Assembly (NCBI GenBank): GCA_030616165.1
Contig: JAUWXV010000020.1
Location: forward strand, 1-28,710
DNA length: 28,710 nucleotides
Source of the DNA: a bacterium
GTDB lineage: Bacteria > SM23-31 > JAUVVT01
Direction: 5' to 3'
The position numbers and the translations under genes are program-made. Each line of letters starts with the position of its first letter. Position 1 is the first letter of the stretch. Below the pieces are notes generated by a model. That model saw only the letters and a list, made by a program, of their open reading frames with translations. It ran no database searches and was not told the DNA's origin. Below, piece after piece: positions 2,925 to 27,346 of the stretch.

Positions 2925-2966
2925 ATATTCGTAAACAATAAAAGTCAAATTTTTCAGATGTGAAGA

Positions 2967-2972
2967 AGGAGG
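2967..2972 (+). promoter_or_regulatory. Ribosome site that sets the Wza-like start at 2978
   Basis: AGGAGG ends five bases before the ATG at 2978. It lies downstream of the in-frame GTG at 2960, so the GTG cannot be the start this site serves. The shorter protein also has a well-formed lipoprotein signal. Confidence 0.85.
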
Positions 2973-2977
2973 GGAAA

Positions 2978-3673: not shown

Positions 3674-3735
3674 TGTAGAATGTTAGTATTAATAAATTTA
3701 CAATAAGATTAATTTTAAAATAGGAGGACACAGTT

Positions 3736-5376: not shown

Positions 5377-5378
5377 CG

Positions 5379-6098
5379 ATGAATATTTTTAAAAGGATAT
5401 TTTGCAAGCTTGCTAAACTTAATAGCAAATGTGACAATGAAGATCACCCAAGTTTGGATATCTGTGGGAAGGGTAGGGAATACTACGAGACTTTGCGTTA
5501 CAATTTGCTCAAGTCTAAAGACAGTTCCCTTGATATGCCACGCCTCATTGCGATAACCAGTTGCAGCGAAGGTGAAGGTGTCAGCACAGTAGCATCAAGT
5601 TTTGCTGTGACGCTGGCACTCCATGGCGATAGGGTCTTGCTTGTGGATGCAAACTTTCGCCATCCGTCAGTGCATAAAATTTTCAAGGTGAATCTCTCTC
5701 CCGGGTTGGGAGAAGTCCTCTGGAATGGAATGGATGGTACGGGAGCCATCCAGCCCTCGGACATCCAGAACCTCTTTGTTCTTTCTGCTGGCGAGATGAA
5801 AGATGATCCCGCATCGGGGTATGAGTCGCAGGAGTTTGCCGAACTGTTAAATATCTTAAAACGGGAATATAGCTTTGTAGTGTTCGACATGCTACCTATG
5901 CAGCGTTCGGTAAATTATGTTGTTCGTCTGGCAAGCCTTTTAGATGGTGTTATTCTCGTGGTTGAGACCGAGCGGGTACGCTGGCAGGTAGTACAGTGGG
6001 CAAATGAACGGCTGGTCAAAGCCAAGGCAAATGTGCTTGGAGCTGTTCTCAACAAGAGAGAATTCCACGTCCCAAGATGGTTGTATGATACACTTTGA
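5379..6098 (+). CDS. BY-kinase-like P-loop protein with a degenerate Walker A
   Basis: Resembles CpsD/CapB-type bacterial tyrosine kinases that pair with a Wzz-like activator. From the ATG at 5379 it has 239 residues. Seen: an ExYxxLRxNL motif (REYYETLRYNLL, about 33-44), a Walker A-like TSCSEGEGVST (60-70) in which the usual GKS/GKST lysine is Val68, a Walker A'-like VLLVDANFRHP with Asn where the second Asp is usual, and a Walker B-like FVVFDMLPM. There is no Tyr-rich C-terminal tail. Family knowledge says the Walker A lysine is needed for ATP hydrolysis and phosphotransfer, so catalysis is doubtful; a structural or nucleotide-sensing role is inferred. It starts 2 bases after the Wzz-like stop. 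A TTG at 5373 is an alternative start adding two residues. Confidence 0.85.
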   Translation: MNIFKRIFCKLAKLNSKCDNEDHPSLDICGKGREYYETLRYNLLKSKDSSLDMPRLIAITSCSEGEGVSTVASSFAVTLALHGDRVLLVDANFRHPSVHKIFKVNLSPGLGEVLWNGMDGTGAIQPSDIQNLFVLSAGEMKDDPASGYESQEFAELLNILKREYSFVVFDMLPMQRSVNYVVRLASLLDGVILVVETERVRWQVVQWANERLVKAKANVLGAVLNKREFHVPRWLYDTL

Positions 6099-6148
6099 TA
6101 TAAGACTTAATATTAAATAAATTGCCGAAAGTTAAAAAGGTGAAAATT

Positions 6149-6559
6149 ATGAAGAAAATATTGAGTAATGTAAACTTGCCTTCACGAATGCGACGTCAGC
6201 AGGGATTGTATGTAATTTATTCTGTCGAGGATTTTTATGAGATTATCGAGCGTGAACGCGCCCGTGCTGACCGTAGCAACCAATGCTTTTCGCTCGTAGT
6301 TTTTGATGTTGATTTACCGGACATGGACAGCACAAAACCTGAGCGTGTAGTATCAGTTCTTGCTTCCCGGATGCGTATTTCAGACGAAATAGGTTGGTTT
6401 GATAAGCGGCGTATAGGAATGATTCTGCCTGATACCTTAGAAGAGGGAGCATGGAAGCTGGCAGATGAGGTTTGTCAGGAGATTAACGGGAAATCACCGA
6501 CTTCTTTTTGCACTGTTTATGCATATCCCTCCGAAAAATGGCCTGTTGAATCTGGTTAA
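6149..6559 (+). CDS. Small GGDEF-derived protein lacking the GGDEF signature
   Basis: A 136-residue protein with the outline of a diguanylate cyclase domain: FSLVVFDVDLPD (47-58) corresponds to the metal-binding strand of GGDEF proteins, then ASRMRISDEIGWFD (72-85) and GMILPDTLEEGAWKLADEVC (90-109) fit the helix and strand around the active site. Where the catalytic Gly-Gly-Asp-Glu-Phe should be, the sequence reads GWFDKR, so cyclase activity is not expected. There is no membrane segment or receiver domain. It lies between the kinase-like gene and the initiating transferase, so it is probably a structural or regulatory part of the assembly core. Whether it still binds a nucleotide is unknown. 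The ATG has AAAAGG (6135-6140) 8 bases upstream. A TTG at 6122 would add nine residues. Confidence 0.75.
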   Translation: MKKILSNVNLPSRMRRQQGLYVIYSVEDFYEIIERERARADRSNQCFSLVVFDVDLPDMDSTKPERVVSVLASRMRISDEIGWFDKRRIGMILPDTLEEGAWKLADEVCQEINGKSPTSFCTVYAYPSEKWPVESG

Positions 6560-6587
6560 CCGGAATTTCTCTTAAACAGAGGTAACG

Positions 6588-7319
6588 ATGTTTCAAAAAT
6601 TTATTAAGTTAACAAAAATCGTTACAGGAAACCATAATACAATTGCCATGCAAACTATCGAAATACCAAATCAGTCTTTCAATAGGCCAGTGATAGGGCT
6701 CGAGCAACTCTTTATCCGAAGAATACCCTATTGGAAGCGCGGGATGGATATCGTCGGGGCGATCGTGGGTTTAGTTTTGTTCATGCCAGTAATGCTTGCT
6801 GTCGTGATTGCAATAAAACTAACCTCAAAAGGAGCTGCTATTTTTAAACAAAAGCGTGTTGGTCAAGAAGGCAAACCATTCATTTTATATAAATTTCGCT
6901 CTATGTTCCTGGGCGCAGAAGACAAAAAGAAGGAATTGATGAAATTCAATGAAAGGACGGGACCGGCATTCAAGATGACTGCTGATCCCCGTGTTACGCC
7001 TATAGGGAAGTTAATCCGTAAATGGAGCCTGGATGAGCTGCCTCAGTTCTATAATGTGCTCAAGGGTGATATGAGTCTCGTGGGGCCACGCCCCCCTACA
7101 ACCGATGAAGTGCCAAAGTACGATAATTGGCAAAATAGGCGGCTGGAAGTCAAGCCAGGTATAACATGTATATGGCAGATTAGCGCCCGACATAAAAGTA
7201 GCTTTGAGGAATGGATTAGACTTGATATCGATTATGTCCGGAGACAGTCATTTCTGCTTGATCTAAAGATTCTATTTTTGACACTGCCTGCCGTACTTTC
7301 AAAAAAAGGTGCGCATTGA
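6588..7319 (+). CDS. Initiating polyprenyl-phosphate sugar-1-phosphate transferase (WbaP/ExoY family)
   Basis: Transfers a sugar 1-phosphate from a nucleotide sugar to undecaprenyl phosphate at the inner membrane, the first step of repeat-unit assembly. The bacterial sugar transferase domain covers about 48-240. A re-entrant membrane helix lies at about 52-78, followed by KFRSM (102-106), the DE pair in LDELPQFYNVLKGDMSLVGP (D149/E150, the catalytic dyad position of the family), the PRP-type GPRPP (166-170) and KPGITCIWQIS (189-199). The multi-helix N-terminal domain of full-length WbaP is missing, so it is the short ExoY/PglC-like form. The sugar cannot be read from sequence. AGAGGT precedes the ATG. 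Confidence 0.93.
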   Translation: MFQKFIKLTKIVTGNHNTIAMQTIEIPNQSFNRPVIGLEQLFIRRIPYWKRGMDIVGAIVGLVLFMPVMLAVVIAIKLTSKGAAIFKQKRVGQEGKPFILYKFRSMFLGAEDKKKELMKFNERTGPAFKMTADPRVTPIGKLIRKWSLDELPQFYNVLKGDMSLVGPRPPTTDEVPKYDNWQNRRLEVKPGITCIWQISARHKSSFEEWIRLDIDYVRRQSFLLDLKILFLTLPAVLSKKGAH

Positions 7320-7404: not shown

Positions 7405-9357
7405 ATGAATATTTTAATATTTATTTTAATAAAAATCCCACGCAAAATATTTCGTGTTATTTTTTATAAATATGAATATTTCTACTACCGGTTTTTATAT
7501 CCGAAGGTAAAATTAAAAAAAAGTTTTACTCCTAAACAATATTTAATCTATGGAGGTGATGACTTAGACAATTTAGAAAACTTTTATCATCATCTATTTC
7601 CCGATAAAGTACGTACAAAGATTGCACAAGCCGATTTGATTTGTGAACATATTTTTGATCTTCTCGGTAGTGGGCCAAAAAAATTAAGTCTTAACGGAGA
7701 GGACTATCAACCTATAGATTGGCATAGTGATTTCAAAAGTGGTTATAAATGGGACCCAAAAATATTTTTTCGTAATATTAAATTCAGTTATGTAGAGGGT
7801 GTTGACAAAAAAGTACCGTGGGAACTTTCCCGATTTCAGCATTTAAATATATTAGGTCAGGCGTATCTAATAACTAATGATAAAAAATATCTTGAAGAAT
7901 TTGTAAATCAAATCAACGATTGGATAGAAAATAATCCAGTCGGGTTCGGGATTAACTGGAAGTGCACAATGGATGTTGCTATACGAGCTACTAATTGGTT
8001 AGTTGCATTAGAGTATTTCGTGAGAGAAGACAATTTATCAAAAGAATTCTTATATAAATTTTATTCAAGTATTTACGAGCATGGTAAATTTATTCGGAGT
8101 CATTTAGAATATTATTGGGAATTTACTAAAATTGCAGCAAACCATTATCTTTCAGATATTGTTGGTTTGTTTTTCATTTCGGTATATTGCCCGTTTTTTA
8201 AAGAGAGTAAAAGATGGCTGGACTTTTGTGTAAAAGAATTGACAAAAGAAATTAATAAACAGATTTATGAGGATGGTTGTGATTTTGAAGCATCTACTTC
8301 ATATCATCGATTGGTACTTGAAATGTTTTTTTACTGTAATTTATTAGCAGACCGAGCAGATATATCTTTGCCTAAAAATTTTAAAGACAAACTAAAAAAG
8401 ATGTTCGATGTATCACTTTATTGTATTAAACCTGATGGTATGGTCCCCCAGGTTGGAGATAATGATAGTGGACGGTTCCTTGTATTCGCTAATAGACCAA
8501 TTTTAGAGCATAAATACCTTTCAATATTTGCTTCTATTTATTATACAGATTTTAGCTTTAAACTTCCCTCCTTTAACTTTGATGAAGAGGCGTTTTGGGC
8601 TTTTGGAAAGAGAGGAAAGAAAGTTTATTACAAACTTCCATCAAGAACAAAATGCCTTGCTTCCAAGGCATTTCCTGATGCAGGGTGGTATATTATTCAT
8701 CATGATAACGATTATTGTTTTATTTCCTGTGGCTCAAACGGTCAGAATGGTATTGGCGGCCACGCTCATAATGACAAGCTCAGTTTCGAACTTATGTTTG
8801 AGGGGAAGGACGTTATCGTTGATCCTGGAACGTATGTATATGCGTCATATCCAAAGGATAGAAACAAATTTCGTTCAACAGAATATCATAATACTGTTAA
8901 ATTTGATGGCTATGAACAGAATGAGATTTCCGAAAAATATATGTTCAGTTTGCCTGATAAGGTTAAGATTAAAGATGCAGATTTAAAAGTAACAGATTAT
9001 AAAATTATTTTCCAAGGAGAAATTCAATATTTAGATTTTACACATAAAAGAATAATAACTTTGGATAAAAAATCTGGGGGATGGCAAATAACAGATAGTA
9101 TTTTTTCTCTAAAACCAATAAATGCAAAATTAATAATTCATTTATCCCCCGGAGTATTTTATGACAATGGTTTCATTTTATCAAAAAAAGCAAATAAGAA
9201 AATAGTCTCGATTGAAGTAGAGGAATCCAGTTTGAAAAAAAACGAATACGATTATTCTATAGAATATGGAACAAAGATGAAAGCAGAGTATTTGGTTGCC
9301 AATATTTATGCTGCTAAAGGTATTAAAGCCATAAATACCTATATTTATAAAGCATAA
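7405..9357 (+). CDS. Heparinase II/III-family protein
   Basis: A polysaccharide lyase-like protein of 650 residues. The N-terminal half (about 100-390) is the alpha/alpha-toroid with WELSRFQHL and an Asn-His-Tyr group (N246-H247-Y248) at a position where the family has active-site residues. The C-terminal half (about 430-640) is the heparinase II/III beta-sandwich, with GGHAHNDKLSFEL (His453 and His455) and VDPGTYVY. The family cleaves uronic-acid polymers by beta-elimination. No cleavable signal peptide is visible; the N-terminus (1-30) is hydrophobic and basic and might sit at a membrane. Proteins of this kind occur in biosynthetic loci with unclear roles. It is one base from the CapK-like gene, so the two are surely co-translated. 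Activity and substrate are not established; uronic-acid genes nearby fit the family. Confidence 0.88.
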   Translation: MNILIFILIKIPRKIFRVIFYKYEYFYYRFLYPKVKLKKSFTPKQYLIYGGDDLDNLENFYHHLFPDKVRTKIAQADLICEHIFDLLGSGPKKLSLNGEDYQPIDWHSDFKSGYKWDPKIFFRNIKFSYVEGVDKKVPWELSRFQHLNILGQAYLITNDKKYLEEFVNQINDWIENNPVGFGINWKCTMDVAIRATNWLVALEYFVREDNLSKEFLYKFYSSIYEHGKFIRSHLEYYWEFTKIAANHYLSDIVGLFFISVYCPFFKESKRWLDFCVKELTKEINKQIYEDGCDFEASTSYHRLVLEMFFYCNLLADRADISLPKNFKDKLKKMFDVSLYCIKPDGMVPQVGDNDSGRFLVFANRPILEHKYLSIFASIYYTDFSFKLPSFNFDEEAFWAFGKRGKKVYYKLPSRTKCLASKAFPDAGWYIIHHDNDYCFISCGSNGQNGIGGHAHNDKLSFELMFEGKDVIVDPGTYVYASYPKDRNKFRSTEYHNTVKFDGYEQNEISEKYMFSLPDKVKIKDADLKVTDYKIIFQGEIQYLDFTHKRIITLDKKSGGWQITDSIFSLKPINAKLIIHLSPGVFYDNGFILSKKANKKIVSIEVEESSLKKNEYDYSIEYGTKMKAEYLVANIYAAKGIKAINTYIYKA

Positions 9358-9358
9358 G

Positions 9359-10762
9359 ATGAGCATACGAAATTTAACAAATAAACTTCCTTATCCAATA
9401 GTACAGGGTCTTAAATATATTCACGGTGCAATCCCGCTTCCTATTCGTTATGGCAAGATATTTAGAAATACATATAAATTTCTTCAAGAATCCCAATGGT
9501 GGGATAGAGACAAATTGGAAGAACACCAGTTTCGGCAGTTAGAGAAACTTTTACATCATGCTTATGCGAATGTGCCTTATTATAAAAGAATATTTGATGA
9601 AAGAGATTTAAAGCCAAAAGATATAAAAAGTATTGATGATTTGAGAAAATTACCGTATTTGACAAAGGATATTATTAGAGAAAATTTTTCTGATTTAATG
9701 ACAAAAAATTACCCAAAGTCTAAATTGGTCTATGCAACCACAGGGGGCACGACTGGTATCCAGTTGGGATTTTACCTGGAAAGAGGAGTTACTAATTCAA
9801 AAGAGTGGGCATTCATTTGTAGACTACAGAATTGGGCGGGGCTTAGATTTGGAGATAAAAAAGTTATATTAAGAGGAAATGTTATAAATAGAATTAAAAA
9901 TGGTAAGAGACAATTGTGGGAGTATAAACCAAATGATAATGCTTTAATTTTGTCTTCATATGATATGACAGATGAAAATATGATTAAATATATTGAAAAG
10001 ATAAATAAATTTAAACCGGTGGCATTTTTAGGATATCCTTCAAGTTTATATACTCTTGCTACTTTTATGAAGGATAGGAGTTTGAGAATAAATAATCCCA
10101 AATGTATTATTACTTCTTCAGAAATATTATATCCTCATCAGAGAGAAATAATAGAGAAACATTTGGGAGTTAAAATTTTTGATTATTATGGAAATGCAGA
10201 GAGAAATGTTCTGGTGATGCAATGTGAGAAAGGAAGTTATCATATTATTTCGGAATATGGCGTTATGGAATTGATTGATGAAATTCAGAATTCGGTGCAA
10301 AAAGATGGTGAAATTGGAGAAATCATCGTTACTGGATTCAATAACTTTGCGATGCCTTTTATTAGATATAAAACAGGAGACCTTGCAATTTATAGTAAAG
10401 ACAAATGTACTTGTGGTAGGATTTATTCCAGAATAAGGAAAATTGAGGGTAGGCTTCAGGAGTTAATCGTGAGCAAGAGAGGTAACTATATTAGCATGAC
10501 AGCGATTAACATGCACTCAGACATTTTCGATAATGTAAAGCAGTTTCAATTCTATCAGGATATACCTGGCAAGGTTACTTTTAACATTGTCAAGAAAGAT
10601 ACATATACTATAAAAGATACTGCTAAAATCTATAATGAGTTAATGAGAAAACTTGGAGATAATATGGAACTTGAGATAGCATTTATAAACAATATTCCCA
10701 AAACTCCGAGGGGGAAACATAGATTTTTAATTCAGAAGTTGGAGATTAAATATGGTGAATAA
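9359..10762 (+). CDS. CapK/PaaK-like adenylate-forming enzyme
   Basis: Phenylacetate-CoA-ligase-like member of the adenylate-forming superfamily, the type called CapK in polysaccharide loci. The 467-residue protein shows the phosphate-binding loop YATTGGTTGIQLG (125-137), GYPSSLYTLA (225-234), DYYGNAE (275-281, the adenine-binding strand), RYKTGDLAIY (336-345, the ribose-binding Asp341) and a CTCGR turn (350-354). Established chemistry of the superfamily is ATP-dependent activation of a carboxylate. Which carboxylate is used here, and whether CoA is the acceptor, is unknown; an acyl group or a uronic acid of the repeat unit are possible. There is no signal peptide, so it is cytoplasmic. It begins 1 base after the heparinase-like gene and overlaps the DUF362 gene by 11 bases. 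Confidence 0.85.
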   Translation: MSIRNLTNKLPYPIVQGLKYIHGAIPLPIRYGKIFRNTYKFLQESQWWDRDKLEEHQFRQLEKLLHHAYANVPYYKRIFDERDLKPKDIKSIDDLRKLPYLTKDIIRENFSDLMTKNYPKSKLVYATTGGTTGIQLGFYLERGVTNSKEWAFICRLQNWAGLRFGDKKVILRGNVINRIKNGKRQLWEYKPNDNALILSSYDMTDENMIKYIEKINKFKPVAFLGYPSSLYTLATFMKDRSLRINNPKCIITSSEILYPHQREIIEKHLGVKIFDYYGNAERNVLVMQCEKGSYHIISEYGVMELIDEIQNSVQKDGEIGEIIVTGFNNFAMPFIRYKTGDLAIYSKDKCTCGRIYSRIRKIEGRLQELIVSKRGNYISMTAINMHSDIFDNVKQFQFYQDIPGKVTFNIVKKDTYTIKDTAKIYNELMRKLGDNMELEIAFINNIPKTPRGKHRFLIQKLEIKYGE

Positions 10763-12284
10763 TGACAACGTTATTATTGATTATTATAGGGATTTGCGTG
10801 TTGCTGTTTATAAGGGAGAGCCTTTTTATCAAATTTTGCCTCCCTTTAATTCTCATTTCCCTTATCCAGAATACATTTTTAAAGATGAAATAAGCTCTAT
10901 ACTTAATCCAGCGTATGATGCAGTGAGAAATTGTTTTCTTCTACTTAAATTAGATAAAGAAAATTTCAGTTCATCTAAATGGAATCCTCTCCGAGTATTT
11001 ATAAAGCCAGGAGATAAGGTTGTTATTAAACCTAACTTTGTTGTTAGTTCGCATAACAAGGGAGGGAATTTATTTTCTATAATTACCCATCCTTCCGTAC
11101 TAAGAGTCATTGTTGATTATGTTTATATGGCCCTCAATGGCGAAGGTGATATCACAATAGCTGACGCCCCCCAAAAGGAATGCAATTTTAAGGAACTTTT
11201 AGAAAATACTAATCTACCTTCCATTCAAGAGCTTTACTGGAAAAAGCGAAAATTCGAAATCAAGATTTTGGATTTAAGAAATTATTGGCTGGATAAAAAG
11301 CCCAATGACGTTGCATCTTTTGTTGGTCGGATAAAAAAATTACCTGGAGATCCTCTTGGCAGCGCTGTTATTAATCTTGGTGAAAAGAGTGAATTCTACA
11401 ATTTCAAAAACTATAATCGCATTTATGGTGCAGATTACAATAGGGATGAAACCATCCGACACCATAGAGGTGAAATTCAAGAATATATGATATCAAAAGC
11501 CGTTTTGAGTGCGGATGTTTTAATTTCTGTCCCAAAGTTAAAAGTTCATAGAAAAGTGGGCGTAACTTTGAACACTAAAGGATTGGTAGGGATTAATACC
11601 AATAAAAATTATTTAGTCCATTATACTCTGGGTACACCAGAAGAAGGTGGAGATCAATTCCCGCCAAAATTTTTAAAAGGAAGAACTAAAATTAAAATAA
11701 AAACTCAGCGACTTCTTTATGACTTACTTCTTTCCAAAAAGAGCCCTATACTGGATAAATTTTACGAAACTTTATATAAAAAAGCTCGTTGGATTTCGAA
11801 GCCATTTTTCAAGGATATTAATAACGGAGAGATAGCGTTGTATGATGGAGGAAACTGGTATGGGAACGACAGCACCTGGCGTATGATTTCCGACCTTATA
11901 AAAATTGCTCTTTATGTAGATAAGGATCAAAAATTGAGAGATATCCCTCAAAGGAAAATATTTTCGATAGTCGATGGGATTATAGGTGGAGAAAATGAAG
12001 GTCCACTAACCCCTGATGAAAAAAGAACTGGTGTGATTATCGCAGGTTTTAATCCCTTAGCAGTGGACATAGTTGGGTCTCGGCTTATGGGATTTAATTG
12101 GCGAAAAATAAAATGGATCGTGAAACTTCTTAATAACGAATATTTCGAGTTTTACGTTGATGATGTTAAAAATATTGAGATTATGACTAACATTTCTGAG
12201 TTTCAGGCTATGTTTAATACAAATGATAAATATCTCAGATTTAAACCCTTCCCCGGATGGAGAAATTACGTTGAGCTTATATAA
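10752..12284 (+). CDS. DUF362-family protein of unknown function
   Basis: A 510-residue protein with DUF362 features: VKPNFVV-like KPGDKVVIKPNFVVSS early on, THPSVLRVIVDYV, GDITIADAP, then DVLISVPKLKVHRKVGVTLNTKG and a late VDGIIGGENEGPL and NPLAVDIVGSRLMG. These match the core pattern of that family. It has few cysteines and no ferredoxin-type CxxCxxC motif, unlike DUF362 members with a fused iron-sulfur domain. No signal peptide or membrane helix is apparent. GGAG (10741-10744) lies 7 bases before the ATG, inside the end of the CapK-like gene, so translation is coupled. The gene neighbourhood implies a joint task with the CapK-like enzyme in making or attaching a modification; this is inference, as no activity is known for this subtype. 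Confidence 0.82.
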   Translation: MVNNDNVIIDYYRDLRVAVYKGEPFYQILPPFNSHFPYPEYIFKDEISSILNPAYDAVRNCFLLLKLDKENFSSSKWNPLRVFIKPGDKVVIKPNFVVSSHNKGGNLFSIITHPSVLRVIVDYVYMALNGEGDITIADAPQKECNFKELLENTNLPSIQELYWKKRKFEIKILDLRNYWLDKKPNDVASFVGRIKKLPGDPLGSAVINLGEKSEFYNFKNYNRIYGADYNRDETIRHHRGEIQEYMISKAVLSADVLISVPKLKVHRKVGVTLNTKGLVGINTNKNYLVHYTLGTPEEGGDQFPPKFLKGRTKIKIKTQRLLYDLLLSKKSPILDKFYETLYKKARWISKPFFKDINNGEIALYDGGNWYGNDSTWRMISDLIKIALYVDKDQKLRDIPQRKIFSIVDGIIGGENEGPLTPDEKRTGVIIAGFNPLAVDIVGSRLMGFNWRKIKWIVKLLNNEYFEFYVDDVKNIEIMTNISEFQAMFNTNDKYLRFKPFPGWRNYVELI

Positions 12285-13620
12285 AAATAACATATTTAAA
12301 ACTCCCTATTCCTATCTTAAAACTTTAATGTCGTCTATATTAGTCAGGAATATATCCAAAGTTTACAGTGGGGATATGTTAACTAAAATCATCGGAATTG
12401 GAACGGCGCTTTTTCTTATAAGGGGATTATCTATAAATGATTATGCTGCTTACACAGCATTTTTCGTCATTCTAACATTAATCCCCGGGTTTATAAATAA
12501 TGGAATAAATCCGGCTTTAGTCAGGTTTTCTGCAGAGCATATTTCAAGCACAGGAAAGAGACCATATGAGTTATATTTTATTAGTTTAATTTTTCAGATT
12601 ATCTTATATAGTTCATTTTGTATTTTATTAATTATAATTGCCGATAGGGTAGCCCTTCTACTTTTTGGTCAGAAGGGTTTTGGTCCTTCTTTGCGTTATG
12701 GATTGATAGCAGGTCTGGGTTTATTGGTCACCCAAGCTTGCAGAGGCATTTACCAGGCGGAGGAGAGGTTCGGACACTACATCAAGACACTGTGGTTAAG
12801 ACAGATTTTATCTTTTGTAATTATCTTTCTTTTATTTTTGTTAAAGCAAATGAATTTTCGAAGTGTGGCTAAATCTATAATAGTTGTAGAGCTCAGTGTA
12901 GGAGCCATTATTTCGTTCTTTATTTTCAAAGATTTTAACCTTAAGCAATTTGGTGTTATCTTTGGTAAGCAACTTAATTTCATCAAGGATTTCATCTATT
13001 CAACTGGATGGCTCATGGCCTATTTCTTAACAGTCACTATATTTCAGAGGTTAGCCATCTTCATGCTTTCGCATTTATCAACTGAAACTGAACTTGCCAA
13101 TTATGGTGTTGCTTCCAAGTATTATTCTTCAATTTCACTTTTGCTTGCTTCAATAAATGCTGTTTTGCTTCCCAGGCTTTCCAAAGTAGATATGCAGGAA
13201 CCAACAAGACAACGTCAATTTGTATTTAAGTGGCTTAAAACCATGGGATGGTTAATAATTCCTATTGCAGTTTCCGATATTTTTGGAAAATCTTTGTTTA
13301 TATGGATAAACGGCATACAATATGAAAGAGCCTTTTATATCTTTGTAATTTTTTCGATTGGAATCTGGTTAAACTTACTATTCAGTCCTCCAGTAATTAT
13401 TTTAATGGCTCGTAAAGAGTTTAAGTTTCTTCTAATGTTAGCATTGGGAGCTTTAACATTGAATTTTATTGGAAATTATCTACTAATCCCCCACTGGGCT
13501 GGTTTAGCCGCGGCGATGATGCTTATAATTTCGAATAGTCTTATTAATATAATTGCTGTAATAAAAATTTTATTTCCAAAAGAACAGAATCTGGACATCC
13601 TTCAATCAAGAAAGTATTAA
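12271..13620 (+). CDS. wzx: Wzx-type oligosaccharide flippase (MATE/MOP superfamily)
   Basis: Moves the lipid-linked repeat unit across the inner membrane. The protein is made of about twelve hydrophobic segments with short charged loops. Typical features are SGDMLTKIIGIGTALFL near the N-terminus, a Gln-Ala-Cys-Arg-Gly segment followed by YQAEERFG in the middle, YGVASKYYS in the second half and a C-terminal run of helices. Start: a TTG at 12271 has GGAGA (12259-12263) 7 bases upstream and overlaps the DUF362 gene by 14 bases. An ATG at 12223 overlaps more and has no ribosome site, and an ATG at 12328 also lacks one. The TTG is my preference, with moderate confidence. Identity rests on topology and position in the operon. 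Confidence 0.85.
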   Translation: MSLYKNNIFKTPYSYLKTLMSSILVRNISKVYSGDMLTKIIGIGTALFLIRGLSINDYAAYTAFFVILTLIPGFINNGINPALVRFSAEHISSTGKRPYELYFISLIFQIILYSSFCILLIIIADRVALLLFGQKGFGPSLRYGLIAGLGLLVTQACRGIYQAEERFGHYIKTLWLRQILSFVIIFLLFLLKQMNFRSVAKSIIVVELSVGAIISFFIFKDFNLKQFGVIFGKQLNFIKDFIYSTGWLMAYFLTVTIFQRLAIFMLSHLSTETELANYGVASKYYSSISLLLASINAVLLPRLSKVDMQEPTRQRQFVFKWLKTMGWLIIPIAVSDIFGKSLFIWINGIQYERAFYIFVIFSIGIWLNLLFSPPVIILMARKEFKFLLMLALGALTLNFIGNYLLIPHWAGLAAAMMLIISNSLINIIAVIKILFPKEQNLDILQSRKY

Positions 13621-13689: not shown

Positions 13690-15102
13690 ATGAATGTTTC
13701 ACTACATCATACAAGTTTGAAGAACTTGTTCAATGTTTCCGTGATAATCTTTTTAAGTTTACTCACAGGAATCTTAATTGTTTATGGGTTTGGATTTTTC
13801 ATCGCTGGCCTGGGTATATTTATTTTATTGTGCTTATATTTGAAAAAAGTAGAAAATATTTTTTTAATATGGTTGTTAGTTTTTCCATTATTTAATGTTG
13901 ATTCATTATCTTTTTTAATTATAGATAATCATCCTATTTTAACTTTTGACAGAATCGTTATTGGGGCATTATTTTTATTTGTTTTGATACAAGTAGTAAT
14001 GGGAAGAAGAAGATTACTGCCCTTGAATAAACTTGAAATAGCAATGATATTATTTTCTTTAGTTATTATATATTCAGTAATCAGTTTAAGTGTTGATAAG
14101 ATAAGCGGAGCAAGAGTATTTATCGATTCTTTTTTATTTCCCTTCATAATTTATTTTTTAGCGAGGAACTTAATTTCGGATGAGAAAAATTTTAATAAAT
14201 TTATTAATGTTATAGTAATTGTAGGAATTTATTTGTCCTTTATGGGCATATATGAATTTTTTACGGGAATAGATATTTTTCCTTTCCGAGAGGGCATTAT
14301 TGAAAGATCAGGTTATTCAAGAGTTAATGGTCCCTATAAATTTGATACTGCTTTTGGAGTTAATGTTGCTATTTGTTTTTTTATTGTTCTGTATAAATAT
14401 ATCACTTATAACAAAAATAATGGAATTATGAATATACGTAGGAATTATTATATATTGATATTGGGTTTGTTGATATTTGCACTATTCGTTAATTATTATC
14501 GAGGTATTTGGTTAGCTTTAATAGTAGGATTGTTAGCTTGGATTTTTATTAGGAGAAAAGGATTATACAAACTGGCGTTTTCCATTATTATTCTATCAAT
14601 AATTGTAATATCAAATTTTGAAACGATAAAATCTACAAAGCTTTTCCAGGAAAGGGTTTCTAATACTGAAACTTTACAGAGTCGGTTTGATAAATTTGAT
14701 CTTTCCATAAATTTATTTAAAAAGAATCCAATTAAAGGTATAGGTTTCAACAATTATCGGCCCATTGGAGGAAGCCAACACAATACATTTCTGGGATTTC
14801 TTTCTGAAACAGGCATTATGGGAGTTAGTGTATTAATGATATTAATTTGGTTTCTTTCTTACTATGGCTTAAGAAATTTCAGATTATCAAGAGTTTATTT
14901 AAACAAAGAATTCTCACTAATATTCCTTTGCATTTCAATAACTTTTTTGGTCACTTGGATGGGACTAAATTCTGGCTTTGTGCCAAGTATTAATAAACTA
15001 TATTTTGCTATTGCAGGAGTATCTTACTGCTCCCCATTAATCGAGAGGATTTTTAAAAAAGAATCCGACTCTGGAAAGGAAAAAGAAGAGAATTTAATAT
15101 GA
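13690..15102 (+). CDS. wzy: O-antigen polymerase/ligase-like membrane protein (Wzy candidate)
   Basis: A 470-residue protein with about ten to twelve membrane segments. It shows the Wzy_C/WaaL-type layout: YYRGIWLALIVGL in the middle (Arg271) and, after a large loop, NPIKGIGFNNYRP and GSQHNTFLGFLSETGIMG (His364), motifs shared by Wzy and WaaL proteins. With a flippase before it and glycosyltransferases after it, Wzy is the likely role, joining repeat units in the periplasm. It overlaps the next gene by 4 bases (ATGA). The ATG has no clear ribosome site. A role as ligase cannot be excluded, but no lipid A core gene is nearby. Confidence 0.82.
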   Translation: MNVSLHHTSLKNLFNVSVIIFLSLLTGILIVYGFGFFIAGLGIFILLCLYLKKVENIFLIWLLVFPLFNVDSLSFLIIDNHPILTFDRIVIGALFLFVLIQVVMGRRRLLPLNKLEIAMILFSLVIIYSVISLSVDKISGARVFIDSFLFPFIIYFLARNLISDEKNFNKFINVIVIVGIYLSFMGIYEFFTGIDIFPFREGIIERSGYSRVNGPYKFDTAFGVNVAICFFIVLYKYITYNKNNGIMNIRRNYYILILGLLIFALFVNYYRGIWLALIVGLLAWIFIRRKGLYKLAFSIIILSIIVISNFETIKSTKLFQERVSNTETLQSRFDKFDLSINLFKKNPIKGIGFNNYRPIGGSQHNTFLGFLSETGIMGVSVLMILIWFLSYYGLRNFRLSRVYLNKEFSLIFLCISITFLVTWMGLNSGFVPSINKLYFAIAGVSYCSPLIERIFKKESDSGKEKEENLI

Positions 15103-19056: not shown

Positions 19057-20268
19057 ATGAAAGAACAACTTAGAGATAGGCTCAATTTTTCCCTAAATCG
19101 ATTCATTGATTGGTTCGAAAATTATGGTGAGTTATCTCAAGATCAGCACGATTTTTGGGCATCTTCTCTTGGACGGCGAGCAAAGTCGTTTTATTACAGA
19201 GCTCCGTTTATAGGAAATGCTGTTGTGGCGCCTTTTGTACTGTTTGAAGCATTTGTTCCTTCTGTACGGCAATGGTTTTCTCCGCCTCGACGTTTCCCTA
19301 TTGCCGACGCACACTATGCTATGGGATTCTCCCATATATACAAATCTACCAAAAAGCGGCAATATTTGGAGAAAGGGAAAAATTTTCTTTCATCTCTTAA
19401 AAGAACACGATGTCCAGGTTATCAATATTACTGCTGGGGATACCCGTTTGATTGGGAAACATGTCGTGGTACGTTTAAGGCGGGAACTCCATTAATAACT
19501 TCTACACCTTATGTTTATGAAGCCTTCAAAGCTTTGTACGAGATTGATCATGATAATCAATGGTTAGAAATCATGAATTCAATTGCAGATCATGCGCTCC
19601 ATGAAATTAGAGATGTAGAGATTGCTCCCGGAATTCGAGCATGTTCATATTCCCCTATAGACCAACGACGTGTAGTTAATGCAAATGCTTATCGTGCATT
19701 TTTGCTTGCTGAAGCAGCACAACAGTTTTCCAAGGATGAGTATTGGAACATCGGCGAAAAAAATCTCAATTTTGTATTACAATCTCAGCAGCCAGATGGT
19801 TCATGGCTTTATGCAATGGAGGATGGTAGGGACTGCTTTATAGATCATTTTCACACCTGTTTTGTACTTAAGAATTTGGTAAAAGTTGAGCGAATAACAA
19901 ATTGCCCAAAGTGTAAGAGAGCAATAGAACGAGGAGTGGAATTTTATCTAAATCGTCTAATAGATAAGGAGGGACTTCCAAAGCCATTTGCAAAAACTCA
20001 ACGTTTAACATTATACAGACGCGAACTTTATGATTATGCAGAAAGCATTAATCTCGCATTAATACTGCAGGAACGGTTTGGTAATTTCAATAAAATTATA
20101 GAATCTCAATTATTAGATTTGTTATCCCGTTGGCAAAAATCAGATGGCTCATTTCGTACTCGCGAACTCTTGTTTGGATGGAACAATGTACCTTATCATC
20201 GTTGGGCCCAATCGCAAATATTCAGAAGTTTGAGTTTTTGGTTCTGGTTAGAACACCGGGACAAGTGA
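19057..20268 (+). CDS. Conserved-type protein of unknown function, alpha/alpha-barrel-like
   Basis: I do not recognise a precise family. The 403-residue protein is aromatic-rich and has repeated helix pairs with motifs of six-hairpin or cyclase-like barrels: CPGYQYYCWGYPFDWE (about 127-142), STPYVYEAFKALYEI, a QQPDGSWLYAM turn, and again KSDGSFRTRELLFGWNNVPYHRW near the end. The two QxxDGS turns, which are typical of terpene-cyclase, prenyltransferase and glycosidase barrels, suggest an alpha/alpha-toroid. No signal peptide is seen. It is 29 bases before asparagine synthase in the same direction. A carbohydrate-active or scaffold role in polymer synthesis is a guess from context and fold pattern. 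Confidence 0.7.
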   Translation: MKEQLRDRLNFSLNRFIDWFENYGELSQDQHDFWASSLGRRAKSFYYRAPFIGNAVVAPFVLFEAFVPSVRQWFSPPRRFPIADAHYAMGFSHIYKSTKKRQYLEKGKNFLSSLKRTRCPGYQYYCWGYPFDWETCRGTFKAGTPLITSTPYVYEAFKALYEIDHDNQWLEIMNSIADHALHEIRDVEIAPGIRACSYSPIDQRRVVNANAYRAFLLAEAAQQFSKDEYWNIGEKNLNFVLQSQQPDGSWLYAMEDGRDCFIDHFHTCFVLKNLVKVERITNCPKCKRAIERGVEFYLNRLIDKEGLPKPFAKTQRLTLYRRELYDYAESINLALILQERFGNFNKIIESQLLDLLSRWQKSDGSFRTRELLFGWNNVPYHRWAQSQIFRSLSFWFWLEHRDK

Positions 20269-20297: not shown

Positions 20298-22202
20298 ATG
20301 TGTGGAATTAACGGAGTATATAACTATCGTGATCTGAAGCCAGTACAAAAGTCTTTATTTATGCGCATGCGAGATACTCTTGCCCATCGAGGTCCCGACG
20401 ATCGGGGACTCTATGTTTATGATAAAGCAGGCATTGCTTTGGGACATCGGCGTCTGTCCATTATTGACCTCGAAACAGGTCATCAGCCGATGAGCAATGA
20501 AGACGGTACAATTTGGCTTGTGTTCAACGGTGAAATTTACAATTTTCTTGATTTGCGAAGAGAATTGTTGTCTTTAGGACATCTTTTCAAAACTAATTCA
20601 GATACCGAAACTATTATTCACTCTTATGAAGAATGGGGAGTTAATTCTTTCTCACGGTTTAATGGGATGTATGCATTTGCACTCTGGGATGAGCGAAATC
20701 ACACACTAACATTGGCGCGTGATCCGTTTGGTATTAAACCTTTGTATTACTGGGATAATGGCCATTCACTCATATTTGGCTCTGAAATAAAATCAATTTT
20801 GTACCATCCAAAAGTTAAACGTGAAGTTGATTTGAAAGCATTAGATGAATTTTTAACACTAACATTTGTTCCATCACCCCGCACGGCGTTTTCAGGGATT
20901 AATAAATTATTACCGGGACATGCTTTGATTTGTAATCGACACGGTAATAGTCTCAGGTACTTTTATCGAAAAATACCTGAGCTTTTATCAAATTGTTCAG
21001 AAAATGATATTGTGGAAGAACTTCGTGAAAAGATTTTTACAGCAATCAATCGGCAAATGGTGGCTGATGTTCCAGTGGGTGCTATGCTCAGCGGAGGTGT
21101 AGATTCCTATACAGTTGCAGAGATTATGACCAGGATTACTGGTGGACCAATACAAACTTTTACTGTGGGCTTTTCAGAAAATTTTGCTGATAATGAATTG
21201 AATGCTGCTCGCGCCACATCATCACGTATCGGTAGTCAACATCACGAAATTGTCATTTCTGCAGACGAATATGCCGAATTATTGCCTCAATCAATCTTGT
21301 ATCTTGAAGAACCAATAGCAACAGCTTCAACACTTGCATTTTATAAGGTGAGCCAATTAGCAAGTAAGCAGGTAAAGGTAGTTTTAACAGGCCAGGGTGC
21401 CGATGAACCATTTGCCGGGTACCAACGTCACTTTGGAGAAAGGTATGGGTCATTGTACCGGGCATTGCCGTCACTCTTACGGGATAGAATGATTGTCCCC
21501 TTGGTAGAGCATTTACCCCGTAACGAACGTCTTAAAAGAGCAGTGCGTTCATTAAATGTAAATGACCCCTTAAAACGAATGTTTCAAGTATATACTATTT
21601 TTGATTCATCTCTCAAGAAACGCCTATACCGTGATGGTCTATTCCAAAAATTTGAAAATCAGCCCTGCGATACCTTACAATTATGGCAGGCAGACGTGTC
21701 TGGTTTGGATGGTTTGAGTCAGATGCTATATGTAGATTCGCGACTTTCATTAGCCGATAATTTATTAATTTATGGTGATAAATCATCTATGGCAGTATCA
21801 CTTGAGGCTCGGGTTCCATTTTTAGATTTAGAACTCATGGAGTTCGTCGAGAGTATACCATCAAACTTAAAAATTAAAGGTAGAACACAAAAGTATATTT
21901 TTAAAAAAGCTGTTTCAAAGTGGATTCCTAATGAAGTTATCAGCAGAAAAAAGATTGGATTTACGACTCCTGTGGATGGCTGGTTCCGAAAAGAACTGCG
22001 GCAATTTATTGAAGACAGTTTGCTTTATCCAGGTTCAGCCTGTAATATATTTTTTGAGCCGAAAACAATTCGATCGATGATAGATAATCATCAAAGTGGA
22101 CGTCAGGATTATAAGAGGGCTTTATTTTGTTTGTTAACTTTTGAAATCTGGTATGACCAGTTTATTAAATTTAACAATTGGAGAATAGGTAGTGAATCTT
22201 AG
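20298..22202 (+). CDS. asnB: Glutamine-hydrolysing asparagine synthase (AsnB-type amidotransferase)
   Basis: Two-domain amidotransferase: the N-terminal class II glutaminase uses Cys2 (MCGINGVYN), with RGPDDRG, GHRRLSIIDL, FNGEIYNF and SDTETIIHSYEEWG; the C-terminal ATP-pyrophosphatase-type synthetase domain has LSGGVDS (265-270 for SGGVDS), TGQGADEPFAGY and SLEARVPFLD. It has 634 residues, usual for bacterial AsnB. In polysaccharide loci such enzymes amidate carboxyl groups of uronic acids, the established case being WbpS-type proteins of Pseudomonas O-antigen loci. With two uronate-forming dehydrogenases nearby this is the likely role, but ordinary asparagine synthesis is not excluded. AGAGG precedes the ATG. 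The stop overlaps the next gene by 11 bases. Confidence 0.92.
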   Translation: MCGINGVYNYRDLKPVQKSLFMRMRDTLAHRGPDDRGLYVYDKAGIALGHRRLSIIDLETGHQPMSNEDGTIWLVFNGEIYNFLDLRRELLSLGHLFKTNSDTETIIHSYEEWGVNSFSRFNGMYAFALWDERNHTLTLARDPFGIKPLYYWDNGHSLIFGSEIKSILYHPKVKREVDLKALDEFLTLTFVPSPRTAFSGINKLLPGHALICNRHGNSLRYFYRKIPELLSNCSENDIVEELREKIFTAINRQMVADVPVGAMLSGGVDSYTVAEIMTRITGGPIQTFTVGFSENFADNELNAARATSSRIGSQHHEIVISADEYAELLPQSILYLEEPIATASTLAFYKVSQLASKQVKVVLTGQGADEPFAGYQRHFGERYGSLYRALPSLLRDRMIVPLVEHLPRNERLKRAVRSLNVNDPLKRMFQVYTIFDSSLKKRLYRDGLFQKFENQPCDTLQLWQADVSGLDGLSQMLYVDSRLSLADNLLIYGDKSSMAVSLEARVPFLDLELMEFVESIPSNLKIKGRTQKYIFKKAVSKWIPNEVISRKKIGFTTPVDGWFRKELRQFIEDSLLYPGSACNIFFEPKTIRSMIDNHQSGRQDYKRALFCLLTFEIWYDQFIKFNNWRIGSES

Positions 22203-23508
22203 TATTTTTGGTCTTGGCTATGTTGGTTGTGTTTCCGGAGCATGCCTTGCTGAAATCGGTCATAAGGTTGTTGGTGTAGACCATAATAAAACTAAAGTGA
22301 ACATGATAAATCAAGGAAGAAGTCCCATCATAGAAAAAGAGATAGATGAAATTATAAAAAAAGTCGTTAAGAGCAAAAGATTTATTGCTACCTCGAATTG
22401 GTATAAAGCAGTCGATGAAACAGACCTTGCATTAGTTTGTGTAGGTACGCCGTATAGCCCCAATGGTAATATTAACTTGAATTTTATAAAAATTGTTTCT
22501 AAGCATATAGGAACGGCTTTGAGAAATAAGAAGAATTATTTTGTGGTTGTAGTACGGAGTACAGTTTTACCCAAAACGGTTGAGAAAACTGTAATACCAC
22601 TATTAGAGAAATATTCAGGAAAAAGTGTTGGGATAGATTTTGGAGTGTGTATGAATCCTGAGTTTTTACGTGAGGGGAGTTCAGTGCATGATTTTTATCA
22701 TCCGCCTAAGATTGTTATTGGAGAATATGATAAAAGATCAGGAGATGTAGTTGTTGAATTATATAAACAAATTGATGTTCCTCTTATAAGGACACAAATA
22801 AAAATTGCAGAGATGATTAAGTATGCAGATAATTCATTCCATGCTTTAAAGGTTACTTTCGCTAATGAAATAGGTAATATTTGCAAGGAACTTACAATAG
22901 ACAGTCATAAGGTTATGGATATTTTTTGTATTGATGATAAATTAAATCTTTCACCTTACTATCTTAAACCGGGATTTGCATTTGGGGGATCATGTCTTCC
23001 TAAAGATTTAAGGGCAATTACTTATAAATCTAAAACTCTGGATATTGATACTCTTGTCTTGAATTCAATCTTAGATAGCAACAAAAAACAAATTCAAAAA
23101 GTAGTAAATAAGCTTCTTGAATATAAAGGACGAAAATTGGGATTTCTGGGATTAAGTTTTAAAGGTGGGACAGATGATTTGCGAGAAAGCCCTATTGTTG
23201 AGGTTATTGAGACAATGTTAGGAAAAGGGTTTAATATAAAAATCTATGATAGATACGTTTTAATTGCAAGATTAATGGGCGCTAATAAAGTTTATATTGA
23301 AAAAGAAATACCTCATATTTCTTCTTTAATGTGTTCTAACATAGAGTATTTAATACATAATTCCGACGTGATAATAGTGGGCAATAAAGTAGATGAATTT
23401 AAGAAAGCATTAAAAATGGTAAAAGAAAATCAGGTAATTATTGACCTTGTGAGGATTGTCAATGATAGTTCTAATATAAAGGGAGAATATTATGGCATCT
23501 GTTGGTAA
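22192..23508 (+). CDS. algD: GDP-mannose 6-dehydrogenase-like (AlgD-type) nucleotide-sugar dehydrogenase
   Basis: Oxidises an NDP-hexose to the NDP-uronic acid in two NAD-dependent steps. It has 438 residues: NAD-binding SIFGLGYVGCVSGACLAEIGH (broken by residue 20 for brevity), NQGRSPIIE, VRSTVLPKTV, NPEFLREGS, AEMIKYADNSFHALKVTFANE and GFAFGGSCLPKD with the catalytic Cys at residue 268, the same number as in Pseudomonas AlgD as I recall it. The C-terminal part has FLGLSFKGGTDDLRESP, and the protein ends in GICW as AlgD does. This strongly favours GDP-mannuronate over UDP-glucuronate as product. GTG start, with GGAG about 9 bases upstream. It overlaps AsnB by 11 bases and the following GT4 gene by 17 bases, so the three form one translational unit. 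Confidence 0.85.
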   Translation: MNLSIFGLGYVGCVSGACLAEIGHKVVGVDHNKTKVNMINQGRSPIIEKEIDEIIKKVVKSKRFIATSNWYKAVDETDLALVCVGTPYSPNGNINLNFIKIVSKHIGTALRNKKNYFVVVVRSTVLPKTVEKTVIPLLEKYSGKSVGIDFGVCMNPEFLREGSSVHDFYHPPKIVIGEYDKRSGDVVVELYKQIDVPLIRTQIKIAEMIKYADNSFHALKVTFANEIGNICKELTIDSHKVMDIFCIDDKLNLSPYYLKPGFAFGGSCLPKDLRAITYKSKTLDIDTLVLNSILDSNKKQIQKVVNKLLEYKGRKLGFLGLSFKGGTDDLRESPIVEVIETMLGKGFNIKIYDRYVLIARLMGANKVYIEKEIPHISSLMCSNIEYLIHNSDVIIVGNKVDEFKKALKMVKENQVIIDLVRIVNDSSNIKGEYYGICW

Positions 23509-24694
23509 GATACTCATTATCGTGGAAAATTTACCTGTTCCTTTTGATAGGAGAGTTTGGCAAGAAGCAAATTCCTTGAAAAATGAAGGTTACGAGATTT
23601 CTGTAATTTGTCCTAAAGGGAAAGGATATGAAAAAAAGTTTGAAATTATAGATGATATTTATATCTATAGGCATTCTCTGCCCTTTGAGGCTAAGCGAGC
23701 TCTGGGTTATTTTTTGGAATATACTTGCGCCCTTTTTTGGGAATTCGTTTTATCTTTAAAAGTATATTTTGAAAGAGGATTTGATGTCATTCATGCCTGC
23801 AATCCTCCCGATCTAATTTTCTTGATAGCCCTATTTTATAAAATACTTTTAAAAAAGAAATTTATTTTTGACCATCATGATTTAAATCCTGAATTGTGGT
23901 TAGCTAAAGGCGGTAAGAAAGATATTTTTTACAAATTATTGCTATTAGTAGAGAAATTTACATTCATGACAGCTGATATATCTATTGCAACGAATGAATC
24001 TTACAAAGACATTGCGGTTCTGAGAGGAGGAATGAAAGAAGAAGATGTGTTCATAGTGCGCAGTTCTCCTATAATAAGCAAATTTGAAAGTCTCATTCCC
24101 GAATCGCCGGATGAATCCATAAAAAATGGTAAAGAATATATGGTGGGCTATGTAGGGGTTATGGGGAAGCAGGATGGTGTTGATTATCTGCTACGCGCAA
24201 TCGACTTTATTGTCAATCGAAGAAAAAGAGAAAATGTTTTTTTCGTAATTATTGGCAATGGACCAGAATGGAACTATTCAGTAAATTTATCCAAGGAATT
24301 GAGAATAGATAATTTTGTCTTTTTTACTGGAAGGATTCCCGATAAAGAGATGATTGAATATCTATGTGCTTGTGATATATGTGTGAATCCAGATGTTGTA
24401 AATGATTTCAATGATAAATCAACAATGAATAAGATAATAGAATACATGATACTTGGAAAGCCAATTGTGCAGTTCAATATGCGGGAGGGCAGGTATTCAG
24501 CAGATGCCGCTTCGCTATATGCCAAAGCAAATGATGAGATAGATTTTGCAAAAAAAATTTTAATACTGCTTGATAACGAGCCATTAGGGAAAAGCATGGG
24601 AGAAATTGGGAAAAAAAGAGTTAAAGATAAATTTTCATGGAAAAATTCGGAAAAAGTTCTTTTAAAAGCTTACAATTATTTATTTAACTCTTAA
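23492..24694 (+). CDS. GT4-family glycosyltransferase (WcaI/WbuB-like)
   Basis: A 400-residue GT-B fold transferase. The N-terminal domain has IVENLPVPFDRRVWQEANSL, a motif of WbuB/WcaI-type enzymes, DVIHACNPPDLIF and FDHHDLNPELW; the C-terminal domain has MVGYVGVMGKQDGVDYLLRAI, FVIIGNGPEW and DKSTMNKIIEYMILGKPIVQ, whose Glu fits the donor-binding EX7E region. GGGAG lies 7 bases upstream of the ATG within the dehydrogenase gene. Tight linkage to the AlgD-like enzyme suggests that it may use the uronic acid donor, but this is inference. Confidence 0.87.
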   Translation: MASVGKILIIVENLPVPFDRRVWQEANSLKNEGYEISVICPKGKGYEKKFEIIDDIYIYRHSLPFEAKRALGYFLEYTCALFWEFVLSLKVYFERGFDVIHACNPPDLIFLIALFYKILLKKKFIFDHHDLNPELWLAKGGKKDIFYKLLLLVEKFTFMTADISIATNESYKDIAVLRGGMKEEDVFIVRSSPIISKFESLIPESPDESIKNGKEYMVGYVGVMGKQDGVDYLLRAIDFIVNRRKRENVFFVIIGNGPEWNYSVNLSKELRIDNFVFFTGRIPDKEMIEYLCACDICVNPDVVNDFNDKSTMNKIIEYMILGKPIVQFNMREGRYSADAASLYAKANDEIDFAKKILILLDNEPLGKSMGEIGKKRVKDKFSWKNSEKVLLKAYNYLFNS

Positions 24695-26023: not shown

Positions 26024-27346
26024 ATGAATGCAGAATTTCAAAGAAAGGTTGATCATCGGCGAATAACTATGGGCATAATTGGTTTGGGTTATATAGGTCT
26101 TCCACTTGTACTTAAATTTGTCGCCAATGGCTTTCACACGGTCGGGTTTGACATTGATAAGTCGAAAGTGAATTTGCTGATGGCGGGGAAAACGTATATT
26201 AATCATATCTCAGACAATGCTATTGCCGAAATGAATAAGACCGAAAAATTTGATGCAACGTCAGATTTTCGCCGGATCAGTGAGGTCGATGTTATTTCAA
26301 TATGCGTTCCTACTCCGCTTACTATTCAACGTGAACCTAACTTGTCCTATATAAAATCCACAGCGGAAATGATACATCCTTATTTACTAAAGGGACAGCT
26401 TATAATCCTTGAATCTACGACCTATCCAGGTACGACAAATGAGATACTTCTCCCAATTCTGGAAAAAAGCAGATTAAAGGCTGGGAAAGATTTTTATCTT
26501 GCTTTTTCTCCTGAACGTGAGGATCCAGGAAATAAGACATTCACCAGCGACACAATTCCAAAAGTAATCGGTGGACACACCCCGGAAGCACTTGAGAGAA
26601 CTTCTTATCTCTATAGTCAGACTGTTGCGGAAACTGTTTCTGTTTCTTCTACACGCGTAGCGGAGGCAGTGAAGATACTTGAGAATATCTTTCGCAGCGT
26701 CAATATTGCATTGGTGAATGAACTGAAAATTATTTATTCGAAAATGGGTATTGATATCTGGGAAGTGATTGATGCAGCGAAAACAAAGCCTTTTGGATTT
26801 ATGGCCTTTTATCCTGGACCAGGTTTAGGTGGGCATTGTATCCCCATCGATCCTTTCTACCTAACATGGAAAGCTCGTGAATATGGATATTCAACCAGGT
26901 TCATTGAACTCGCAGGTGAAATCAATACAGCTATGCCCATGCATGTTATTCAGGAGTTGATGGATGCGCTCAATAAAAGGGGAAAAGCGCTTAAGAATTC
27001 ATCAATATTGGTTATTGGTCTCTCTTATAAGAAAGATATTGACGATATAAGGGAGAGCCCATCATTGAAATTGCTGGAAATTCTTAAAACAAAGGAAGCC
27101 AAAATTGCCTATTATGATCCCTATGTTCCACGCATGAAGAAAACACGCGATTATCAAATGCTGGAAGAATTGGAAAGTATCGAACTGATACCTGAAACAA
27201 TAAGAAAATTTGATGCTGTTCTCATTTCAACCGCTCATTCTTCAATCGATTACGATGAACTGGTGCAGCATGCGCAACTGGTCATCGATACACGTAATGC
27301 GACCAAAAATGTAAAAGAAGGAAGGGAGAAAATCAAAAAGGCTTAA
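26024..27346 (+). CDS. WbpA-type UDP-N-acetylhexosamine/UDP-glucose 6-dehydrogenase
   Basis: A 440-residue nucleotide-sugar dehydrogenase: NAD-binding MGIIGLGYIGLPLVLKF, PTPLTIQREPNLSYI, LESTTYPGTTNE, FSPEREDPGN, AEAVKILENIFRSVNIALVNE, PGPGLGGHCIPIDPFYLTWK with catalytic Cys272, and VIGLSYKKDIDDIRESPSLKLL. The SPEREDPGN and PGPGLGGHC motifs match the WbpA/TviB/WecC side of the family (UDP-GlcNAc or UDP-ManNAc oxidation) and differ from the AlgD-like enzyme upstream. The product would be UDP-GlcNAcA, UDP-ManNAcA or UDP-glucuronate; sequence alone does not decide. AAGAGGT (26013-26019) is well placed before the ATG. Its composition looks GC-richer than the genes on either side, hinting at a separate origin. 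Confidence 0.9.
   Translation: MNAEFQRKVDHRRITMGIIGLGYIGLPLVLKFVANGFHTVGFDIDKSKVNLLMAGKTYINHISDNAIAEMNKTEKFDATSDFRRISEVDVISICVPTPLTIQREPNLSYIKSTAEMIHPYLLKGQLIILESTTYPGTTNEILLPILEKSRLKAGKDFYLAFSPEREDPGNKTFTSDTIPKVIGGHTPEALERTSYLYSQTVAETVSVSSTRVAEAVKILENIFRSVNIALVNELKIIYSKMGIDIWEVIDAAKTKPFGFMAFYPGPGLGGHCIPIDPFYLTWKAREYGYSTRFIELAGEINTAMPMHVIQELMDALNKRGKALKNSSILVIGLSYKKDIDDIRESPSLKLLEILKTKEAKIAYYDPYVPRMKKTRDYQMLEELESIELIPETIRKFDAVLISTAHSSIDYDELVQHAQLVIDTRNATKNVKEGREKIKKA

Follow-up and report, generated by a model that had tools for sequence, protein, structure and literature searches.

What polymer might be made with three overlapping genes of a bacterial contig, an amidotransferase (AsnB), a dehydrogenase and a GT4 glycosyltransferase? 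The genes lie at positions 20298-24694 of the window, which is the whole stretch of DNA analysed (28,710 nucleotides). A preliminary description of this DNA predicted an amidated mannuronate, and considered the pairing of an AsnB with a GDP-mannuronate route in a Wzy-type locus to be unusual. In the reading favoured here, held with moderate confidence from sequence comparisons, the three genes form the mannuronate part of an exopolysaccharide locus of the Wzx/Wzy-dependent type, and mannuronamide is an optional modification. Of the earlier interpretation, three elements are thus retained, namely an AlgD-type GDP-mannose 6-dehydrogenase (GMD), a uronamide-type AsnB and a locus of the Wzy type. 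The rarity of the pairing is not. The genes are as follows:

20298-22202, + strand: AsnB-type glutamine-dependent amidotransferase (TIGR03108/WbpS-like), predicted to be uronamide-forming; 634 aa
22192-23508, + strand: GDP-mannose 6-dehydrogenase (GMD, AlgD family), predicted to make GDP-mannuronate; 438 aa, GTG start
23492-24694, + strand: GT4 glycosyltransferase (Glycos_transf_1/Glyco_transf_4), predicted mannuronosyltransferase; 400 aa

The open reading frame coordinates agree with the overlaps described previously, 11 bases for AsnB/GMD and 17 bases for GMD/GT4. A similar GMD/GT4 overlap (estimated at ~17-20 bases) is found with orthologous GT4 in Planctomycetota and in Alpha-, Beta- and Gammaproteobacteria, and is thus not due to chance. 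The 11-base overlap of AsnB and GMD is, among the loci seen, peculiar to the window locus; the immediate gene order AsnB, GMD, GT4 is also seen in Zixibacteria (L035). GC content is 0.385-0.388 in AsnB and the gene upstream of it (19057-20268), and 0.317-0.331 in GMD and GT4. This step suggests that two blocks, meeting at the 11-base overlap, may have been recently joined. Promoter and terminator scans of the window performed no better than on shuffled sequences, so the transcription unit is proposed from gene spacing alone.

Identity of the dehydrogenase

The product of 22192-23508 is 50% identical to Pseudomonas aeruginosa AlgD over its full length, with a score of 493 bits, compared to 251 bits for the highest-scoring UDP-glucose dehydrogenase of the PDB. 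Residue 1 pairs with residue 1 of AlgD, and the GTG start is therefore credible. The catalytic set is complete (Cys268 in FGGSCLPKD, Lys210, Asn214 and Asp272), and Cys268 and the C-terminal GICW are both present, as noted previously. A scan of genomes with a GMD alignment returned 80 related loci, all of which encode the C-terminal Trp (80/80), a GICW-like end being characteristic of the entire family. The positions most specific to GDP-mannose dehydrogenases are His217, Leu126, Ala263 and Arg122 (Freas et al., PMC4794789). All four are found in the window GMD and in 80/80 related loci, and are absent from the UDP-glucose dehydrogenases (UGDs) and HexNAc dehydrogenases compared. Phylogeny, which had been suggested as a check, places all GMDs in one clade with AlgD and the window GMD (SH-aLRT 97), apart from UDP-sugar dehydrogenases, in what is a quick tree with long outgroup branches. 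Thus, every available sequence test gives very strong evidence that 22192-23508 encodes a GDP-mannose 6-dehydrogenase. A mannose-1-phosphate guanylyltransferase-like gene elsewhere in the assembly (340 bits, under the 373-bit cut-off of TIGR01479) could supply the GDP-mannose.

Identity as a UDP-glucose dehydrogenase was rejected on the bit scores (251 vs 493), the AlgD clade and the group-specific residues. Near the active site, the window GMD differs from AlgD in having Asp for Cys213 and Lys for Arg259. These were rejected as signs of altered specificity, being frequent in the family (27/80 and 33/80, respectively). At E 1e-90, no GMD relatives were found in five sister genomes from the window's own small phylum. 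In Methylibium sp. NZG (L006, 10001-12636), a GMD and a UGD-type dehydrogenase are found in tandem with ~250 bases between them.

The glycosyltransferase and the surrounding locus

Many of the 80 GMD loci carry, directly after GMD, a GT4 that is 53-59% identical to that of the window. The Pseudomonas loci in the set of 80 lack all other genes of the window and, judged by species, are presumably alginate operons. Pairing was counted for the GT4 relatives with at least 48% identity (48-59%, n=21) in 37 GMD-bearing genomes: 19/21 follow a GMD on the same strand at a distance of at most 1.5 kb, which for 15/21 is no more than 50 bases. The hosts of the GMD-GT4 pair include Pseudomonadota, Planctomycetota, Spirochaetota, Acidobacteriota and Myxococcota, and more diverged GT4s (38-43%) occupy the same position in Zixibacteria, Ignavibacteria and one acidobacterium. 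Given this near-exclusive pairing, it is a natural inference that the GT4 (23492-24694) uses GDP-mannuronate. As this GT4 subfamily is almost always paired with GMD, its sequence would serve to mark exopolysaccharides that contain mannuronate in different phyla.

The neighbouring genes that bear on the type of locus are:

2960-7319, + strand: Wza-like protein, Wzz-like chain-length protein, BY-kinase-like ATPase, ORF 6122-6559 and polyprenyl-P sugar-1-P transferase
7405-9357, + strand: heparinase II/III-type (alginate-lyase-like) polysaccharide lyase
12223-13620, + strand: Wzx flippase (Polysacc_synt)
13690-15102, + strand: Wzy polymerase/O-antigen-ligase-type protein
19057-20268, + strand: (alpha/alpha)6-toroid carbohydrate-active protein (predicted fold), 29 bases upstream of AsnB
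26024-27346, + strand: UDP-HexNAc 6-dehydrogenase-type enzyme with a GGHC motif and Arg at the AlgD His217 position

The Wzy-type setting is borne out by the presence in the window of Wza, Wzz, an initiating sugar transferase (PssA-type), Wzx and Wzy, and glycosyltransferases and methyltransferases are found after Wzx/Wzy. Neither the Alg8/Alg44 synthase nor AlgK/AlgE is found among the annotated window genes. Relatives of the heparinase II/III-type lyase often adjoin GMD, and relatives of the toroid protein flank GMD in four loci (L021, L025, L026 and L038). An AlphaFold2 model of the toroid protein (pLDDT 72, pTM 0.77) has a GH76/epimerase/GH88-type fold (Z at most 29), a predicted fold that is compatible with a hydrolase or an epimerase alike.

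Straight after the heparinase-like gene, at 9359-12284, are genes for a PaaK-like AMP-ligase and a DUF362 protein, which overlap by 11 bases. PaaK-like genes are also found near GMD in L009, L011, L012, L019, L024, L029 and L037, together with DUF362 in L029. The gene at 1243-2724, directly upstream of the export genes and in the same orientation, encodes a FapA N-terminal domain protein.

AsnB and its probable substrate

AsnB carries GATase_7 and Asn_synthase domains, and its class II glutaminase residues (Cys1, Arg49, Asn74-Gly75-Glu76 and Asp98) and ATP-pyrophosphatase motif (SGGxDS) are intact. Its top NCBI specific family is TIGR03108, at 563.7 bits. As this is below the curated cut-off of 816.9, AsnB is related by sequence to the TIGR03108 equivalog and is not filed as a member. 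In this family, deletion of WbpS in Porphyromonas gingivalis abolishes a uronamide, and a step of this kind in E. coli O121 was shown to depend on WbqG (PMC7468200). Thus, AsnB is predicted to be a uronamide-type amidotransferase. The window asnB, searched directly as DNA against E. coli genomes with WbqG in view, gave no match.

AsnB could instead be the cell's asparagine synthetase, its position here being incidental. It is the sole Asn_synthase gene found in the 90%-complete assembly, from which AsnA is absent and in which AsnRS is present, and its score exceeds the threshold of TIGR01536, a broad model for asparagine synthases. However, the TYDVTTIRAS loop of E. coli AsnB, which we take to be the aspartate pocket of that enzyme, is missing and is replaced by EEPIATAS, and the top-scoring family is an EPS amidotransferase. 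In three sister genomes (63-83% complete), AsnB gave either no hit at all (one genome) or hits that were no more than weak and partial (two genomes). GatB and a single AspRS with the RDHGG motif, which is presumably linked to relaxed tRNA specificity, are compatible with tRNA-dependent asparagine synthesis, although GatB would be needed anyway, as no GlnRS in the window's own genome passes the cut-off. The tRNA-dependent route has been shown in Bdellovibrio (PMC4206432). Thus, a housekeeping role for AsnB is weakened by these comparisons and we consider it improbable. AsnRS, GatB and the lone RDHGG AspRS are found on contigs C50, C167 and C221 of the window's genome, and tRNA-dependent asparagine synthesis is possible in this rare phylum.

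The proximity of AsnB to dehydrogenases was counted in 37 genomes that are not fully independent of each other; as they were picked by GMD alone, AsnB proximity is unselected. Within 10 kb, and always on the strand of the dehydrogenase, AsnB-type genes accompany 11/39 GMD, 0/34 UDP-glucose-type and 5/42 UDP-HexNAc-type dehydrogenases. At 10 kb, GMD differs from the UDP-glucose type (Fisher p 0.0006), a control weakened by the many UGD genes that are probably outside polysaccharide loci, but not significantly from the UDP-HexNAc type (p 0.09). As 28/39 GMD loci are without a nearby AsnB, amidation is not obligatory for mannuronate. The proposal that the three genes act as one unit therefore holds for GMD and GT4, which are tightly coupled, and not for AsnB, which is an optional companion. 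In the AsnB tree, which was made without WbqG and WbpS, GMD-linked AsnBs cluster (3 label changes; mean after shuffling 9.0, with 0/2000 shuffles as low), and the window AsnB falls within the group holding most of them, with moderate support (SH-aLRT 86). Common inheritance of whole clusters accounts for part of this.

Far from being unusual, AsnB and GMD genes are found together in many genomes from several phyla. Deinococcus aetherius has a contiguous run of asnB, alginate lyase family gene, GMD and GT4, and Streptomyces sp. KN37 has GMD, GT4, two Wzz genes, asnB, an oxidoreductase gene, an alginate lyase family gene, a beta-helix gene and a Wzy-type gene, in that order. The cassette is widespread across many phyla and apparently undescribed: nothing relevant to a GMD-AsnB cassette or to polymer mannuronamide was found in the literature searched, which excludes most subscription papers.

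A different target for AsnB would be a HexNAc uronate made by the enzyme at 26024-27346, as with WbpS and WbqG, in which case GMD and GT4 would add unamidated mannuronate. This UDP-HexNAc-type dehydrogenase is only 1.3 kb downstream of GT4, some of its type do have a nearby AsnB (the 5/42 above), and those amidotransferases of the family whose function has been demonstrated work on HexNAc-derived uronates (PMC7468200). However, it is GMD that AsnB directly overlaps, and GMD-linked AsnBs cluster in the tree. In addition, no HexNAc dehydrogenase is within reach in several AsnB-GMD loci; for instance, the annotated Deinococcus stretch has none, and the sole dehydrogenase found in the L027 genome is GMD. 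We therefore regard a HexNAc target as unlikely. Less likely still, and very doubtful, is amidation of a different carboxylate, unrelated to either dehydrogenase, on the glycan or lipid intermediate or in the cell wall. Numerous AsnB-like genes in these genomes do lack a nearby dehydrogenase, and in a relative from the phylum (G004) AsnB lies beside an epimerase and a GT2 gene and the surrounding genes that were scanned include no dehydrogenase, but the association and tree clustering of AsnB with GMD argue against this.

Proposed pathway and related systems

With mannuronate as the most likely substrate of AsnB, the following pathway is proposed. GMD would oxidise GDP-mannose to GDP-mannuronate, a step for which the sequence evidence is very strong, and the overlapping GT4, given its near-exclusive pairing with GMD, would add mannuronate to a lipid-linked oligosaccharide repeat. 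With glutamine and ATP, AsnB would turn a uronate into its uronamide by amidating the C6 carboxylate, and this uronate is most likely the mannuronate of the GMD-GT4 route. The repeat would be flipped by Wzx and polymerised by Wzy, and the lyase and toroid proteins may trim or clear the polymer. From the gene content, mannuronamide is a plausible product.

The window GMD shares with AlgD of the alginate system 50% identity, the catalytic and GDP-mannose-group residues and the GICW end, but its neighbours are a GT4 and Wzx/Wzy functions, where those of AlgD are the Alg8/Alg44 synthase. The window AsnB resembles WbpS, WbqG and PGN_1234 (TIGR03108) in architecture and in its position in a polysaccharide locus; however, the known members act on HexNAc-derived uronates, whereas the neighbour of AsnB is predicted to make mannuronate, without N-acetyl groups. 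The locus as a whole is like the XrtA/EPS-type Wzx/Wzy loci in its Wza, Wzz, BY-kinase, PssA-type initiator, Wzx and Wzy, and in its heparinase II/III-like and AsnB-like genes, but no exosortase was identified within the window, and the GMD-GT4 pair is carried. Loci on Deinococcus aetherius pDAETH-1 and on a Streptomyces sp. KN37 plasmid also combine asnB, an alginate-lyase-family gene, GMD and GT4 in a Wzy-type locus. They differ from the window in having the lyase between AsnB and GMD (Deinococcus) or the Wzz genes between GT4 and AsnB (Streptomyces), and no studies of either locus were found in the literature searched.

To our knowledge, GDP-mannuronate is usually associated with alginate synthesis only. 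The balance is about even as to whether the cross-phylum combination of GMD and a GT4 dedicated to GDP-mannuronate, with a lyase and, optionally, AsnB, represents a second route to polymeric mannuronate outside alginate, leading to Wzy-type polysaccharides that contain mannuronate and mannuronamide. The interest of the locus is moderate and comes chiefly from this cross-phylum GMD-GT4 pair. Where AsnB accompanies it, charge-neutral mannuronamide residues are predicted, and this is open to testing in culturable hosts, among them Duganella, Nitrosomonas and Deinococcus.

On the KN37 plasmid (L131), the gene following the alginate-lyase-family gene, at 23057-24580, encodes a right-handed beta-helix protein that could be an epimerase or a lyase. 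The genome of the window has a second polysaccharide locus fragment on contig C164 (L097, 7233 bases). It carries the end of a Wza gene, Wzz, an acetyltransferase, a UDP-HexNAc-type dehydrogenase, a GT4, a small holo-ACP-synthase-like ORF and a flippase-like protein, all except the dehydrogenase being named by eye from translations, and may be part of the same locus or of another.
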